Of a stretch of DNA of 64,000 bases, positions 11,531 through 59,833 are shown piece after piece (positions within the stretch are counted from its first letter, which is position 1; every line of letters starts with the position of its first letter). A model generated the notes under the pieces. The model was not told the origin of the DNA and searched no databases. It saw nothing but the letters and a program-made list of their open reading frames with translations. The stretch is taken from positions 248,001 through 312,000 of the forward strand of contig NZ_MASR01000001.1 of assembly GCF_001758195.1 (NCBI RefSeq), in the 5' to 3' direction. This DNA comes from Pseudohongiella acticola (lineage in GTDB: Bacteria; Pseudomonadota; Gammaproteobacteria; Pseudomonadales; Pseudohongiellaceae). The translations under genes were made by a program, and so were the position numbers.

Positions 11531-12910
11531 TCAGTCGTAAACGACGTTGCGAATGACCGCATCATAGTCACTGACGCCCCGCCGGAACGCAGCTTCCGGC
11601 ACCCGCTCATCGTTGCCGTGGACGCCGGTATGCTCGCCATCGTCGGTAATCAGCGGATTGAATCCGTAGCTGATGATGCCGAGGTCACGAGTGAAGTGGC
11701 TGTCGGTGAACCCGGTGCTGACCGATGGCAACACCCGGGATCCGGGGTGAAGCTCAGCCGTTACATTCTGGATGGCGGTAAACAGCCGTGAATTGGTCGT
11801 GGAAATGGCAGGTGTGAACGCCATGATCACATCAACAGTGACGCCGGTATGCTCGACCAGCTCGGTTAGTTCCGAGATGAACTGCTGCGCCGGTTTGTCG
11901 GGCAGAATCCGGCAATCCAGTTCAGCCCATGCCTCTGGGGCGACCACATTGATTTTGTTGGAACTTTCCATGCGGGTCATGGAACAGGTGTCGCGGATCA
12001 ATGAGTGGTGACCTGGCCGGTTTTCATGCAGTCGCTGAATAAACGCGGGGTTCTGTATAGCCTGGCGTATGTCGGCGTAATCGTCTGCCCAGGCCGGGCC
12101 CTGAGCCAGTGACATACCGGCAAAATAATCCTCCACCGGCGGGATGATTCGCGGCGGGAACGGATTCTCCAGCAGTGTATTCAGGGCGCGTACAACGCGT
12201 GTCATTGAGCTGGTTGTGCGTGGTGAGGAGCCGTGACCGGGCTCATCAACTGCAGTCAGGCGCAACCAGACCGGTACCTTTTGTGTGACCTCAACACCGA
12301 ATACGACCTCACCGTCACTGCGGCTGCCTCCCCCGCCTTCATTAAGCAGGATGCCAGCACCGTCGAAAATTTCCGGATGATTGTCAATCAGCCAGCCAAC
12401 ACCGAAGGCGCCGCCCGCCTCTTCGTCCGCGGTGGCCAGAAACACGACATCTCGGTTCAATTCCCGGTTTGAGGCATGCAGCTGTAGAAACGCAACCAGC
12501 TGGGCGATGCCCAGACCTTTCATGTCGCGGGTGCCACGCCCATAGATATAACCCTCGCTAAGGTTGCCCGCCAACGGGTCGAATGACCAGTATTGCCGAT
12601 CTGCAGGCACCACGTCAGTGTGTTGCAGCAAAATCAGACCGGGTTCGTTGCCGCCAGGCAGGCGTGCCCAGATGTTGCCACGTCCCGGAGCGCTTTCTGC
12701 GGTTTCGTACTCAATGCCGGCAGCGTCAAAAATGCGGGCATAAAACTCGACCGCCCGAAACTCGTTACCGGGCGGATTAATGGTGTCGATCTGTACAAAT
12801 TCCTGCAGCCACGCCACGGCCTGGTCGCTGGTTTCAATGTCAATCTGCGCGCTCAGTGGTGCTGCGCTGAATATGAATATTGCCGACAAAAACCATTTTT
12901 CGAATTTCAC
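11531..12910 (-). CDS. Secreted M20 family zinc peptidase
   Basis: A 459-residue metallopeptidase with an N-terminal signal peptide (cleavage near APLSAQ), so periplasmic or secreted. The M20 zinc site is complete: H97-T-D99 (LLQHTDVVP), the bridging Asp in GRGTRDMKG (129) and the catalytic DEEAGG (163-164). The dimerisation domain lies in the middle (LRLTAVDEPGHGSSP). The family includes carboxypeptidases, dipeptidases and acylases; the substrate cannot be told from sequence. Start is GTG 12910 with AGGAG at 6 bases. It is followed by the blaI promoter region, so it is probably transcribed alone. Confidence 0.9.
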   Translation of the reverse strand: MKFEKWFLSAIFIFSAAPLSAQIDIETSDQAVAWLQEFVQIDTINPPGNEFRAVEFYARIFDAAGIEYETAESAPGRGNIWARLPGGNEPGLILLQHTDVVPADRQYWSFDPLAGNLSEGYIYGRGTRDMKGLGIAQLVAFLQLHASNRELNRDVVFLATADEEAGGAFGVGWLIDNHPEIFDGAGILLNEGGGGSRSDGEVVFGVEVTQKVPVWLRLTAVDEPGHGSSPRTTSSMTRVVRALNTLLENPFPPRIIPPVEDYFAGMSLAQGPAWADDYADIRQAIQNPAFIQRLHENRPGHHSLIRDTCSMTRMESSNKINVVAPEAWAELDCRILPDKPAQQFISELTELVEHTGVTVDVIMAFTPAISTTNSRLFTAIQNVTAELHPGSRVLPSVSTGFTDSHFTRDLGIISYGFNPLITDDGEHTGVHGNDERVPEAAFRRGVSDYDAVIRNVVYD

Positions 12911-55170: not shown

Positions 55171-55626
55171 TCATCTTTTTCTGTGCAGATACAGTTGCCA
55201 GGTGGTGATGCCTGCGACAATGCCGAAGGCGTTAGCCACCATATCGCCCAGGCTCATTCCCCGGCCCGGAATATAGTATTGCAGCCATTCAGTAGTAGCC
55301 CCGAAAATCAATAATATCAGAACAATAACGGGCTTATTTAACGCTGGTTCCCATGCCCTGTTGGCCAGCAATGCGCATGTCAGAAACAGAAAAACATGTA
55401 CAATTTTGTCAATGGCAATCGAGCTGCCAGTTGTCTCTGCTACCGGCCATGGCCACCAGCTGTTTTTCCAGTCGCGCAGCATGTCAACGACCGGTTCGAT
55501 CAGAGACTGCACTGCCATGATGACGGGGCCCGGTATCAGCAATGCTATCGCCGTCAAGGCCAACGCCAGGCACGCCAGTTGTTGAGCATGCCCTTGCCTG
55601 CCTCTGAAAGTCCGTTTTGCCGCCAC
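55171..55626 (-). CDS. VanZ-like membrane protein
   Basis: A 151-residue protein with four hydrophobic segments (about 17-40, 72-90, 96-112, 126-145). IDKIVHVFLFLTCALLANRA and TEWLQYYIPGRGMSLGDMVANAFG show the VanZ family pattern with the conserved H, E, Q and D residues. The biochemical role of this family is unsettled. The start is GTG 55626. The following UDP-glucuronate epimerase on the same strand (57 bp) hints at an envelope polysaccharide context. Confidence 0.85.
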   Translation of the reverse strand: MAAKRTFRGRQGHAQQLACLALALTAIALLIPGPVIMAVQSLIEPVVDMLRDWKNSWWPWPVAETTGSSIAIDKIVHVFLFLTCALLANRAWEPALNKPVIVLILLIFGATTEWLQYYIPGRGMSLGDMVANAFGIVAGITTWQLYLHRKR

Positions 55627-55700: not shown

Positions 55701-57677
55701 TCAGATATCGGGAATTCGTTCCGAGCCCCAGCTTTTTTCCACCATGGCGACAATATCGTCGAGCAGCGTGGTTTCGACTGCATCAGGGTTACCAGGCTCG
55801 AGGGAATCGTAATGAAAGATGTAGAGCCGTGACGCGAACTGTTCAAATGGCAATGATGCTTCTCCAAAGCGCTCGCCTCGTCCGGCGGTGCTCACCACCA
55901 CATCGTGTCCCCAGTTCTGACCGCTGTCATTGTTCGGGTTATAAAAATACACGCGCATTATCTGGTCAGGATCCAGCCCTACCCGCTGAATTGTGATGGC
56001 ATGCCAGCCAATAAAACGGCCGGCAGTATCGGTCACCGCAATGCCAGCAGGCTGGGGATGAATGACGGGCTGATTGTCATTAAAAAACGGGTGATAAGAG
56101 GCATAAAAATAACGCAGAAATTCACCCAGATTCTGCAGATGACCGGTAGCGATATCTACGGCAATACGAAAGCCCCGCCCCGTCCACCAGCCGTGAAACT
56201 CAGGATTGATCCAGCGGTGAGGGTCTTCATCACGACCGACACAGCGGCGCCCCATTTCGGCGTAAATACGGTCCAGGTGAGGCACCACCAACAGCGACAC
56301 CGGGTCCTGGTCGAGCACCAGACCCGAAGCAAGACCGGACTGACTGGTCTGCGACGAGATCGGTTTACCTTCAAAATGCATGACTATTTCATCATCACGC
56401 GCTGCCCAGACGACCATTTGCAGAAGATAATCAGGGTCATTGTAAGCCCACATCGACAACGCGCGGGCAGACTGACAGGTCGGATTGTTGCCCTGTCCGA
56501 CACCCAGTGGCAGTCCCAACATACACAAAACACCTTCCAGTAACCGCACTCGCGGAGGCTGGGCGTCGCCATAGGCTAGCGACAGACGCTCCTCAGCAAC
56601 CGGATTGAGCGTTAAAGACAGTTGTCGCCATAACGCAGGTGCCACCGGCGGTTGATACAGTATTCCCCTTTCCAGCATCAGGGTCAGTCCATACAGTGCC
56701 TGTGCTGTCTCGGCGTGAATTGCCTGGTCAATAACTTCCATGACCAGCGGTCGGTAACACATCAGGCACTCTCGGCCCGTACTTGAGAGGCCAAGCGCCT
56801 CATGAATCAGGTGGGTCAAGGCCTGCTCCGAATACAGGTGCCTGAGCAGCACCACGTGGTACGACGATACCAGCCCGGTATCGTGCATGGCCCGCGACAT
56901 TCCGGTTGACTCTGACTGCAACGCGGTTTCGTCCATTTTGCTCAATCGGTCCAGATAGACCTCGAGGCCCGGATCCTCCCGACAGGCTTCAGTCGGCCCG
57001 AATAGAGCACTGACCAGTCTATCAGCGCCTTGCCCGCTACTGCGAAACTCGATATTGGGATTGGCCTGACAGACAGCGATCTGGGTGACCATCTGCTTGA
57101 CGGTGTCCACCTGGATCGGGCGCTGTTTCAGCACACGCCATATCTCGTCAATGAGACTGTCGATAATATGTTCATAACCGATGCGTTCGGCCAGATGATG
57201 CAGCAACAGGTCCGGAATGATGGCCGCCCGCCCCTGCGCTGTGCGCCTTGCCTCATTAACACCCTGAAACATGAGTTCCAGGTTGAGCGCCAATACCTGC
57301 GTCAGAAAATGGTGTGCCTGAACTGACGATATCGAGTCGTGAGCATAGTCCTCACGGGCAACAGCCAGTAATCTCAGCTCACTCATTGCCTCCAATACCA
57401 GAACGTCCGGGTCGCGTGTCTGGAAGGCGTACTGGGTCAGGGAGGCCACCAGTATTTGTGGTTCCGCCCAGTCCGTCCCCAGGAAAACGCCACTGGCATC
57501 CATTTTTTGAGCACGTTGCTCCAATGCTTCGCAGCCACCGGGCTGCATAAGAATACGCCGCGCTGTATCGAGAACGCGGCGTATTTTGAGGGGCTTGCTC
57601 AGTTCTGGCGTGTCAGCCAGTATCTGTAAGGCTTCATCCATGCGCGGCAGCAAATCTGCCAGTAGCGTGTCAGACAT
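55701..57677 (-). CDS. Unassigned 658-residue protein with a papain-like C-terminal domain (inferred)
   Basis: I do not recognise this protein as a named family. Residues 1-380 look mostly helical and lack clear motifs. The C-terminal half shows a papain-like arrangement: Q395-G-N-N-P-T-C401 (Gln six residues before Cys, as Q19/C25 in papain), H559 in GWHAITIQ and N580 in VYFYNPNN, with Cys-His and His-Asn distances of 158 and 21 (papain 134 and 16). The end has NWGHDVVVS. No signal peptide, so cytoplasmic. ATG 57677 overlaps the ATP-grasp stop by 8 bases. A cysteine protease, transglutaminase or amidase acting with the ligase is inferred, not proven. Confidence 0.6.
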   Translation of the reverse strand: MSDTLLADLLPRMDEALQILADTPELSKPLKIRRVLDTARRILMQPGGCEALEQRAQKMDASGVFLGTDWAEPQILVASLTQYAFQTRDPDVLVLEAMSELRLLAVAREDYAHDSISSVQAHHFLTQVLALNLELMFQGVNEARRTAQGRAAIIPDLLLHHLAERIGYEHIIDSLIDEIWRVLKQRPIQVDTVKQMVTQIAVCQANPNIEFRSSGQGADRLVSALFGPTEACREDPGLEVYLDRLSKMDETALQSESTGMSRAMHDTGLVSSYHVVLLRHLYSEQALTHLIHEALGLSSTGRECLMCYRPLVMEVIDQAIHAETAQALYGLTLMLERGILYQPPVAPALWRQLSLTLNPVAEERLSLAYGDAQPPRVRLLEGVLCMLGLPLGVGQGNNPTCQSARALSMWAYNDPDYLLQMVVWAARDDEIVMHFEGKPISSQTSQSGLASGLVLDQDPVSLLVVPHLDRIYAEMGRRCVGRDEDPHRWINPEFHGWWTGRGFRIAVDIATGHLQNLGEFLRYFYASYHPFFNDNQPVIHPQPAGIAVTDTAGRFIGWHAITIQRVGLDPDQIMRVYFYNPNNDSGQNWGHDVVVSTAGRGERFGEASLPFEQFASRLYIFHYDSLEPGNPDAVETTLLDDIVAMVEKSWGSERIPDI

Positions 57678-58893
57678 AAAAATCCAGCTCTTCCTGTTTT
57701 TTCAGCAGATCACGCATCTTATACGGATCATCCCCGGTGAAGTAAACCAGGCCCCAGTGTGTGCCAAACGCGGTTCGTTTGGTCACGGTCTCTTCCATGG
57801 GCTGAGTCAGTTCGTGAGATTCGAAGTAGGGATGGTTTTCCGTTTCTTCGGGCAACTCCATACGACTGACCACACGACGACGAGGATAAACACCAAAGCA
57901 GCCCGCATGGCATTTGGCATCGTCAATTTCTTTGGGAAAGAACGCCGTTATCTCTTCGTCCGTGGTTTTGGGGTCGAAGGACAGGATCAATGCCTGGTAG
58001 GCGTTAAAACCGTATACGCGTTCAAGCAACTCAAACACTTTAAAACCTGGCGGCCGATAGGCAACCTCGCCGAAGTACATTTCGTTGTCACTGGTGACAA
58101 AATACTCAGGGTGGACAAAGCCGAACTGGATATCAAAGGTTTTGATCAGTTTTTCCACTTGTTGCACAATCTGTGCGCGATATTTTTCCAGATCAGGTGT
58201 TGCCGGAACAAAAACCGAATAACCCAGCGTCACATACTCGGAAATGTTGAGAAACCTGATTTTACCGTCATGAACCCAGGCCTCCACGGCAAACTCCCAG
58301 CCATCGAGATGACTTTCCATCAGAATCGGGAATTCCTCATCCGGTATGCCGTAAACGTCGTCTGGAGTTCTGACAACGCGGTGTCCAAGACACCCGGCCT
58401 TGTCGAAGGCCTTGAGGTGAATGGGATCGCTGGGGTCACCGTCCAGTTTCAACAGTGTCTGGTTGACTCGCTTGAGGAAGCGCACTACGTCCTCTTTCTC
58501 GTGCGCTTCTTCAAATATGCCAACTCTGATGCCGCCAAGTTGCGCACGTCGTTTCATCAGGGATTTGTCGCGGAACAGGATGGATTGGCCAAACAGGCGG
58601 GGGTTATCCATCAACACGGCATTGATTGCACCGGCCCATTCGACGGTTTCTTCGAACAACGGGATGGCGACATCGACTCCTTTCTCCTGAAGCTTCTGTG
58701 CGATTTCCATGGAGCGGTCGTTGAGACGTTCAAAATTCCACGGAATATAGGGAATATCGTGTTTTTCACAGTATTCCTGTGCCCAGTCAGGCGCAACCAC
58801 GACATATCGCCGATCAAAGCCTTCGGCTGCTTCCACCGCCGCCAGACTCCAGCCCAATAATGCTACGTAACCTTTTGCTGTATCTTTCTTCAT
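57670..58893 (-). CDS. ATP-grasp domain ligase, substrate unknown
   Basis: A 407-residue ATP-grasp enzyme. The pre-ATP-grasp domain (residues 1-105) leads to K110 (RDKSLMKRR) and K161 (LKAFDKAGCLG), which fit the two ATP lysines. LMESHLDGWEFAVEAW (191-206) supplies acidic adenine/metal residues, and MYFGEVAYRPPG (272-283) has the metal-binding Glu near the end of the fold. Such enzymes join a carboxylate and an amine through acylphosphate. The substrate is unknown. AGGAG at 6 bases before ATG 58893. It is followed by the papain-like protein in an 8-base overlap. Divergent from map. Confidence 0.85.
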   Translation of the reverse strand: MKKDTAKGYVALLGWSLAAVEAAEGFDRRYVVVAPDWAQEYCEKHDIPYIPWNFERLNDRSMEIAQKLQEKGVDVAIPLFEETVEWAGAINAVLMDNPRLFGQSILFRDKSLMKRRAQLGGIRVGIFEEAHEKEDVVRFLKRVNQTLLKLDGDPSDPIHLKAFDKAGCLGHRVVRTPDDVYGIPDEEFPILMESHLDGWEFAVEAWVHDGKIRFLNISEYVTLGYSVFVPATPDLEKYRAQIVQQVEKLIKTFDIQFGFVHPEYFVTSDNEMYFGEVAYRPPGFKVFELLERVYGFNAYQALILSFDPKTTDEEITAFFPKEIDDAKCHAGCFGVYPRRRVVSRMELPEETENHPYFESHELTQPMEETVTKRTAFGTHWGLVYFTGDDPYKMRDLLKKQEELDFYV

Positions 58894-59059: not shown

Positions 59060-59833
59060 ATGCCCGTCAGCCTGAAAACCCCGGATGAGATTGAAAAAAT
59101 GCGTGTCGCAGGACGTCTGGCGGCAGAGGTCCTGGAAATGATAGGAACGCATGTAAAACCCGGTATCAGCACCGGTGAACTCGACCGTATCTGTCACGAC
59201 CATATCGTCAACGTACAGCAGGCCATCCCGGCTCCGCTGAACTATAATGGCTTCCCCAAATCGATTTGCACCTCTCTTAACCAGGTCGTTTGCCACGGCA
59301 TCCCCAGCGATAGCAAGATATTGAAAAATGGCGACATTCTGAATATCGATATCACTGTCATTAAAGACGGTTATCATGGTGATACCAGCAAGATGTTTTT
59401 TGTCGGCGATGTTGCGCCACATGCCAAACGCCTGGTCATGATCACTCAGGAATGTTTATACAAAGCCATGGAGATTGTCCGTCCGGGCGTTCAGCTCGGC
59501 GATATTGGTCACGTAATTCAGACGCATGCTGAAGCCAACAATTATTCGGTTGTACGCGAATATTGCGGGCATGGCATCGGCCGGGTGTTTCATGAAGACC
59601 CTCAGGTGCTGCATTATGGCAAACCCGGAACGGGGCTCAGGCTGGAAGAAGGCATGACCTTTACCATTGAGCCCATGATCAATCTGGGCGAGCGTCATAC
59701 CAAACTGTCCAAAGCTGATGGCTGGACCGTGACCACACGTGACCGACGGTTGTCGGCACAGTGGGAGCACACCATGGCCGTTACTGCCGACGGTGTTGAA
59801 GTTCTGACCCGGCGCACAGAAGAAACGTTCTGA
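59060..59833 (+). CDS. map: Methionine aminopeptidase, type I
   Basis: Removes the initiator Met from nascent proteins. 257 residues. The metal ligands are in NGDILNIDITVIKDGYHGDT (Asp and Asp), EYCGHGIGRVFHEDP (His), FTIEPMI (Glu) and QWEHTMAV (Glu). It has no N-terminal extension, so class Ia. Usually map is divergent from rpsB; here the neighbour on that side is the ATP-grasp operon, and rpsB is not in the window. glnD follows 96 bp on. Confidence 0.97.
   Translation: MPVSLKTPDEIEKMRVAGRLAAEVLEMIGTHVKPGISTGELDRICHDHIVNVQQAIPAPLNYNGFPKSICTSLNQVVCHGIPSDSKILKNGDILNIDITVIKDGYHGDTSKMFFVGDVAPHAKRLVMITQECLYKAMEIVRPGVQLGDIGHVIQTHAEANNYSVVREYCGHGIGRVFHEDPQVLHYGKPGTGLRLEEGMTFTIEPMINLGERHTKLSKADGWTVTTRDRRLSAQWEHTMAVTADGVEVLTRRTEETF

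Follow-up and report, generated by a model that had tools for sequence, protein, structure and literature searches.

A pair of overlapping genes in Pseudohongiella acticola, one for an ATP-grasp ligase and one for a protein with a probably papain-like C-terminal part, is conserved and behaves as a functional unit. The window, that is, the whole stretch of DNA that was analysed, covers 64,000 nucleotides (positions 248,001 to 312,000 of contig NZ_MASR01000001.1). The two genes, termed here ATG and PAP (Table 1), lie on its minus strand exactly where the initial annotation had placed them and share 8 nucleotides. Evidence from sequences, profiles, structural models and patterns of co-occurrence supports a real pair, which is apparently undescribed. 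ATG and PAP may well both be enzymes in a small-molecule amide pathway that has not been described before and is found mostly in halophilic and marine gammaproteobacteria, a proposal that we judge to be evenly balanced between right and wrong.

The two genes are found in the same genomes. PAP and ATG occur together in 25 of the 194 genomes sampled from the order, and the other 169 have neither (Fisher 5e-32, a value that counts related genomes as independent). Among 274 genomes of the class both are present in one identical set of 8, to which the window's own genome belongs, so that rare co-occurrence, a concern raised when the pair was first annotated, is ruled out. A sample of 299 genomes of the phylum yielded PAP in 8, seven of which had already been counted; the new one, G476, also carries ATG. 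Within genus g1, three genomes hold both genes (G000, G110, G183) and two hold neither (G044, G161).

The arrangement of the pair is similarly constant. Loci with both genes numbered 112, some of them fetched twice; the genes are on the same strand in 104, with ATG upstream in 103 of these. Exceptions in orientation are divergent (L021, L027, L030) or convergent (L119). PAP stands beside only a decayed ATG remnant in L031, L081 and L098, has no neighbouring ATG in L034, L067, L071, L085 and L088, and is 7.5 kilobases (kb) away from it in L096. In all nine genomes tested that have a PAP locus lacking an adjacent full ATG, a second type of ATG is nevertheless encoded in full elsewhere (75-78% identity). 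Thus, PAP came with ATG in every genome tested for both.

Both genes also occur in other forms. Decayed or truncated ATG copies lie beside an intact PAP in L031, L081, L098 and L011, and beside an ectoine synthase gene in L180. PAP is multicopy in three genomes: G019 has a fragment besides five full copies, G093 has four copies and G060 three. Several of these copies have no adjoining ATG, and their context varies from copy to copy. Marinobacter-type PAP paralogues without a linked ATG (L139, 8025-13841; L147, 8279-12868) have as neighbours a GCS2-like ligase and an AstE/AspA-like deacylase, names that come from a Pfam run on the L147 copies.

PAP has no nameable family, as was first suspected from its sequence. 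The window protein had zero matches in Pfam (Peptidase C1, PF00112, included), NCBIfam and PADLOC at E<=1, and neither PAP nor ATG matched PHROGs at E<=0.1. When each member of a 54-member PAP alignment (A2) was scanned against Pfam, 11 families appeared, each in 1 of 54 members and with E>=0.03; PF00112 was not among them. Four residues had been picked out as following the order of papain, Gln395, Cys401, His559 and Asn580, and all were verified in the translation. They are kept in 30 of 30 sequences from the order (window PAP and 29 others, 50-69% identity), are invariant in A2, and are identical in all 118 distinct homologues. This last set combines the order, class and phylum searches with the 80 best loci of a named-genome collection, which holds at least 586 stretches with a PAP relative; identity falls to 41-46% for its remotest members (L119, L118). 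The proposed order and its conservation therefore stand, but the role of Asn580 is contested by Asn583, which is Asn in 115 of the 118 and is favoured by the profile alignment described below.

The AlphaFold2 model of PAP, built on the 54-row alignment, has a predicted local distance difference test (pLDDT) score of 92.3 and a predicted template modelling score of 0.84. Cys401 is modelled as the first residue of helix 401-413 and His559 within strand 555-568, with Asn580 placed after the next strand listed in Table 1. The model, a confident one, thus has an element order of the papain type, with Cys at a helix N-terminus and His and Asn in a later beta part. In Foldseek comparisons of the full chain helical repeats predominated, and no match reached E<=0.001, either in the PDB, where the best papain row was 8iui (E 0.74), or in BFVD, where the papain family made up three of the five best rows (E 0.046-0.34). 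A search of the PDB with the A2 profile returned six rows, all with E>=0.042; three are designed helical proteins, and no papain-like protein is among the six. When PAP was compared by hhalign with 11 Peptidase_C1 sequences, its C-terminal part scored a probability of 61% (single-comparison E 8e-05) and the full alignment 40% (3e-04), as against 0.1-0.3% for three unrelated control families. Only the His block and the segment NPNN..GQNWG are aligned. The alignment pairs His559 with the C1 His and the C1 Asn with Asn583, three residues past Asn580. The papain-like fold anticipated in the initial annotation is thus supported by the element order and the His block; the C1 alignment stops short of Cys401. 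PAP is probably a papain-like protein with either Asn580 or Asn583 as the predicted third catalytic residue, and not a member of family C1.

The same results could be taken to mean that PAP is a non-catalytic structural or regulatory partner, with ATG the sole enzyme. PAP belongs to no peptidase family, the full chain has no significant papain match, and the C1 alignment is confined to the His/Asn block and leaves out the Cys. Set against this, Q, C, H and N are invariant in 118 of 118 homologues, and residues 376-658 account for 55 of the 75 columns that are invariant across these sequences. Papain-like domains that have become inactive have usually lost either Cys or His. A PAP without catalytic activity is accordingly considered highly improbable.

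ATG is the more conserved partner, 30 representatives being 75-86% identical to the window protein. By sequence it matches PF13535 (ATP-grasp_4) at 2.3e-05 with 24.5 bits, slightly short of the 27-bit cut-off, and it resembles RizA and BL00235 weakly as well. Its model has a pLDDT of 81.2, being weaker at residues 126-130, 145-168, 193-197 and 369-377, and shows the predicted ATP-grasp fold: Foldseek returned 348 PDB matches at E<=0.001, and the 50 listed all have probability 1.00. The best of these are 4wd3, which is RizA (E 3.6e-20), and then 3vot (2.4e-18), with 3vmm (3.7e-16) and 3wnz also in the top six.

Three more families recur around copies of ATG, PAP and one another in different genera: a histone deacetylase (HDAC)-like amidohydrolase, a GNAT acyltransferase and the ectoine synthase EctC. 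In the sequences inspected, the HDAC-like protein has RPPGHHA, DWDxHHGNGTQ and EGGY as motifs, and it is closest to class II HDACs (HDAC6/HDAH); polyamine deacetylases (HDAC10, acetylpolyamine aminohydrolase) are also among its solved relatives, at weaker scores. With score limits that were set after the gap had been seen, members of this subfamily (at least 367 bits) occur in 16 of 25 PAP-bearing genomes of the order and in 0 of 169 others, the next best score being 226 bits. In a class sample of 217 genomes, which is taken to leave out the PAP-bearing genomes G451 and G460, the figures are 4 of 6 and 0 of 211; three of the four score at least 499 bits and one 329, and the next best is 250 bits. 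Among 21 HDAC copies with known context, six directly adjoin ATG or PAP, or connect to them through GNAT (L069, L115, L136, L151, L152, L166), and in L144 ATG is about 3 kb away. GNAT adjoins HDAC in six of the 21 (L136, L161, L165, L166, L168, L169). Both families were confirmed by Pfam above curated cut-offs, and GNAT also matches RimI models below cut-off and has 5isv as a structural relative. HDAC genes near PAP in the Halomonas loci L064, L070, L084, L095, L102 and L110 score only 103-120 bits and were not counted as members of the subfamily. A SIR2-family deacylase lies near ATG in L136 (6213-6926, plus strand; PF02146), and a clustered relative in L150 (13107-13967, minus strand).

EctC is linked to ATG or PAP in several gene orders (Table 1), and the linked copies match PF06339 and NF009806 above cut-off. 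In 5 of 33 PAP-bearing genomes it is no more than 2 kb from ATG or PAP, and in four of these no more than 1 kb, where about 0.2 and 0.14 would be expected by chance (P ~3e-6 and 1e-5, from rough copy numbers and for a family chosen after looking). No ectB-like open reading frame (ORF) of at least 110 residues on the same strand was found beside the linked EctC of L136, L151, L166, L175 or L176, the contigs of L151 and L175 being short. In a midpoint-rooted tree of 32 EctC sequences, labelled solitary or canonical from their neighbouring ORFs, the copies of L136, L151, L166 and L175 fall outside canonical ectABC and share a group with the solitary EctC found in Marinobacter-type genomes (support 0.90). 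That of L176 nests among canonical ectABC copies (support 0.74-0.96). Since one linked copy is of the canonical type and the other four are of the solitary type, EctC has probably joined ATG twice. A third EctC-like clade, L192 (6059-6418, minus strand) and L070 (21645-21953, plus strand), clusters apart from the other 30 sequences; each copy directly follows an ORF that presumably encodes an amidase-signature enzyme.

It is proposed that ATG would join a carboxylate to an amine at the expense of ATP, as dipeptide ligases do, and that PAP would act as a papain-fold cysteine amidase or acyltransferase which cuts or transfers the resulting amide. In many genomes GNAT could provide an N-acylation step, the HDAC-like zinc amidohydrolase an N-deacylation step, and EctC the cyclo-condensation of an N-acyl diamine. 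Given these three partners, N-acyl diamino acids or ectoine-type compatible solutes, together with their amino-acid conjugates, would be the likely substrates. The reactions, the substrates and the direction of flux are thus those which the gene families and their neighbourhoods suggest. A fuller and more tentative version, possible but rather doubtful, is that ATG, PAP, HDAC, GNAT and solitary EctC form a pathway that makes and recycles an amide conjugate of an ectoine-type solute with an amino acid or amine, that this pathway supplies or consumes the substrate of the solitary EctC clade, and that PAP founds a family of papain-fold small-molecule amidases or acyltransferases.

The initial annotation, whose interpretation is partly supported, had instead proposed conjugation to a cytoplasmic protein. 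In such a scheme ATG would attach an amino acid or small amine to the protein and PAP would remove or transfer it, with GNAT, HDAC and SIR2 as further enzymes of acylation and deacylation. Some weight must be left to this scheme because HDAC and GNAT resemble protein-acting enzymes, the one being nearest to class II HDAC6/HDAH and the other matching RimI models and 5isv; the SIR2 genes of L136 and L150 fit as well, and the large helical part seen in the PAP model could bind a partner. It is opposed by EctC, an enzyme with a small-molecule substrate, which recurs as a partner and seems to have been recruited on two occasions. The closest folds of ATG, moreover, make free dipeptides (functions taken from PDB names and general knowledge), and no recurrent acceptor or tag gene was present among the neighbour clusters, which hold ORFs of at least 80 residues, so that a short tag peptide would escape. 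Those relatives of the pair that travel with EctC, GNAT and the HDAC-like amidohydrolase point to small-molecule chemistry. Modification of a protein is therefore regarded as unlikely, and it is with moderate confidence that the small-molecule, ectoine-linked reading is held to be the likelier of the two.

Amide metabolism may also proceed without ectoine, for example on acylpolyamines or on an amino-acid conjugate used in storage or stress, with the linkage of EctC reflecting no more than a clustering of salt-stress genes. The polyamine deacetylases among the solved relatives of HDAC, weaker though they are than HDAC6/HDAH, would agree with this, as would the GCS2-like and AstE/AspA-like genes beside PAP in L139 and L147, and EctC is unlinked in 28 of the 33 PAP-bearing genomes. 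Five genomes in which EctC adjoins ATG or PAP in differing gene orders, and a sixth (L180) in which it adjoins an ATG remnant, argue the other way, and this alternative is thought somewhat unlikely.

Several observations weigh against an ectoine-linked amide pathway, the unlinked EctC copies just mentioned among them. EctC is present in 25 of 25 PAP-bearing genomes of the order, compared with 69 of 169 others, and in 8 of 8 further PAP-bearing genomes, but since it is common in salt-adapted bacteria this 33 of 33 may be a matter of habitat. Members of the solitary EctC clade are found also without PAP (G074, L195). Of the wider gene set, the window's own genome carries PAP and ATG alone; its canonical ectABC (L196) lies elsewhere, and no HDAC of the subfamily was found in it. 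More widely, 14 of the 21 HDAC copies have no ATG, PAP or EctC in the stretch fetched, and the kinship of HDAC with HDAC6/HDAH and of GNAT with RimI-type enzymes would fit protein acylation too. Finally, the relatedness of the genomes behind the Fisher values and the late choice of the HDAC score limits have to be borne in mind, and the neighbour families were picked after looking.

Table 1. Features of the ATG-PAP locus in the window, and gene orders at loci where EctC is near ATG, PAP or an ATG remnant
Feature	Position	Strand	Description
ATG	57670-58893	-	407 residues; ATP-grasp carboxylate-amine ligase, L-amino-acid-ligase-like
PAP	55701-57677	-	658 residues; helical residues 1-388, probable papain-like C-terminal part ~376-650; without family model
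Codon Gln395 (PAP)	56493-56495	-	oxyanion-hole position in papain order
Codon Cys401 (PAP)	56475-56477	-	candidate nucleophile
Codon His559 (PAP)	56001-56003	-	aligned with C1 His
Codon Asn580 (PAP)	55938-55940	-	directly after modelled strand 574-579
Codon Asn583 (PAP)	55929-55931	-	alternative third residue
VanZ-like gene	55171-55626	-	PF04892; 74 bases downstream of PAP
map candidate ORF	59060-59833	+	faces the ATG-PAP pair; presumed identity
Locus L151			PAP-HDAC-ATG-EctC
Locus L166			EctC-GNAT-HDAC, ATG convergent
Locus L136			EctC-ATG-GNAT-HDAC
Locus L175			ATG-PAP-EctC
Locus L176			EctC-ATG-PAP
Locus L180			EctC beside ATG remnant

The surroundings of the pair add some further detail. 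In L031 an ORF similar in size to the VanZ-like gene of the window (11999-12529) comes after PAP, and the VanZ-like gene may therefore be co-transcribed with PAP in this lineage. The pair was said to occupy the place where rpsB-tsf usually faces map; a map-like ORF, presumably map itself, does face it, but a crude motif search of the window found no rpsB. In loci of the Halomonas type, what we take to be a TlyA-like gene (53 of 100 clustered loci) and a large gene, presumably channel-like (55 of 100), were rejected as pathway partners on grounds of shared synteny. Neither is present in the neighbourhoods displayed for 20 other loci. A viral origin was likewise set aside, viral_contigs containing no PAP relative and PHROGs, at the limit given above, matching neither protein; so too were an anti-phage defence system (PADLOC, 0 of 2 proteins at E<=1) and a plasmid-borne pair, for which there is only one Halomonas plasmid record, where the pair is unannotated.

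The wider interest of the pair lies in EctC. In PMC6344544, EctC is described as condensing N-gamma-acetyl-diaminobutyrate to ectoine. Solitary EctC is widespread and its function is stated to be unresolved, with only ectoine synthesis, and perhaps ectoine degradation, known to yield its substrate (PMC5924519, PMC6344544); the term ATP-grasp is absent from the text of both papers. As one solitary clade is now tied to a defined gene set, the question becomes testable and a concrete lead on solitary EctC function is at hand. Should PAP prove to be an amidase or acyltransferase, it would add a papain-fold family that has no profile and, for salt adaptation, a coupled ligase and hydrolase that could be useful for producing ectoine derivatives. 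Among the papers searched, none was found that joins ATP-grasp with ectoine synthase, or ectoine with histone deacetylase and ATP-grasp, nor one on an operon of ATP-grasp and cysteine peptidase in Halomonas; the amidoligase survey of Iyer 2009 may already list the pair. In the classification of papain-like enzymes in PMC10318531, the available portions make no mention of Halomonas or Marinobacter.

Compared with the ectoine cluster EctABC, linked EctC has ATP-grasp, PAP, HDAC and GNAT as its partners in place of the ectA-ectB-ectC arrangement. The L-amino acid ligases RizA, BL00235 and BacD/YwfE are the best structural matches of the ATG model, with TM-scores of ~0.6 at 13-17% identity. ATG differs from them in being paired with PAP in every genome sampled, and to our knowledge none of these ligases is known to have such a partner. 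PAP and papain (C1) have the Q-x5-C spacing in common and a similar order of elements in the model. The spacings from Gln to Cys, Cys to His and His to Asn are 6, 158 and 21 residues in PAP, as against 6, 134 and 16 in papain, and in place of the QGxCGSCW motif PAP has QGNNPTCQS. Glutathionylspermidine synthetase/amidase combines an ATP-grasp ligase and a papain-fold amidase, acting on one small-molecule amide, in a single fused chain. Its amidase is placed among the CHAP enzymes (PMC10318531), and neither PAP nor ATG matches the CHAP or glutathionylspermidine synthetase domains of Pfam at E<=1. In contrast to that fused enzyme, ATG and PAP are the products of two genes, and PAP carries a large helical part of its own.

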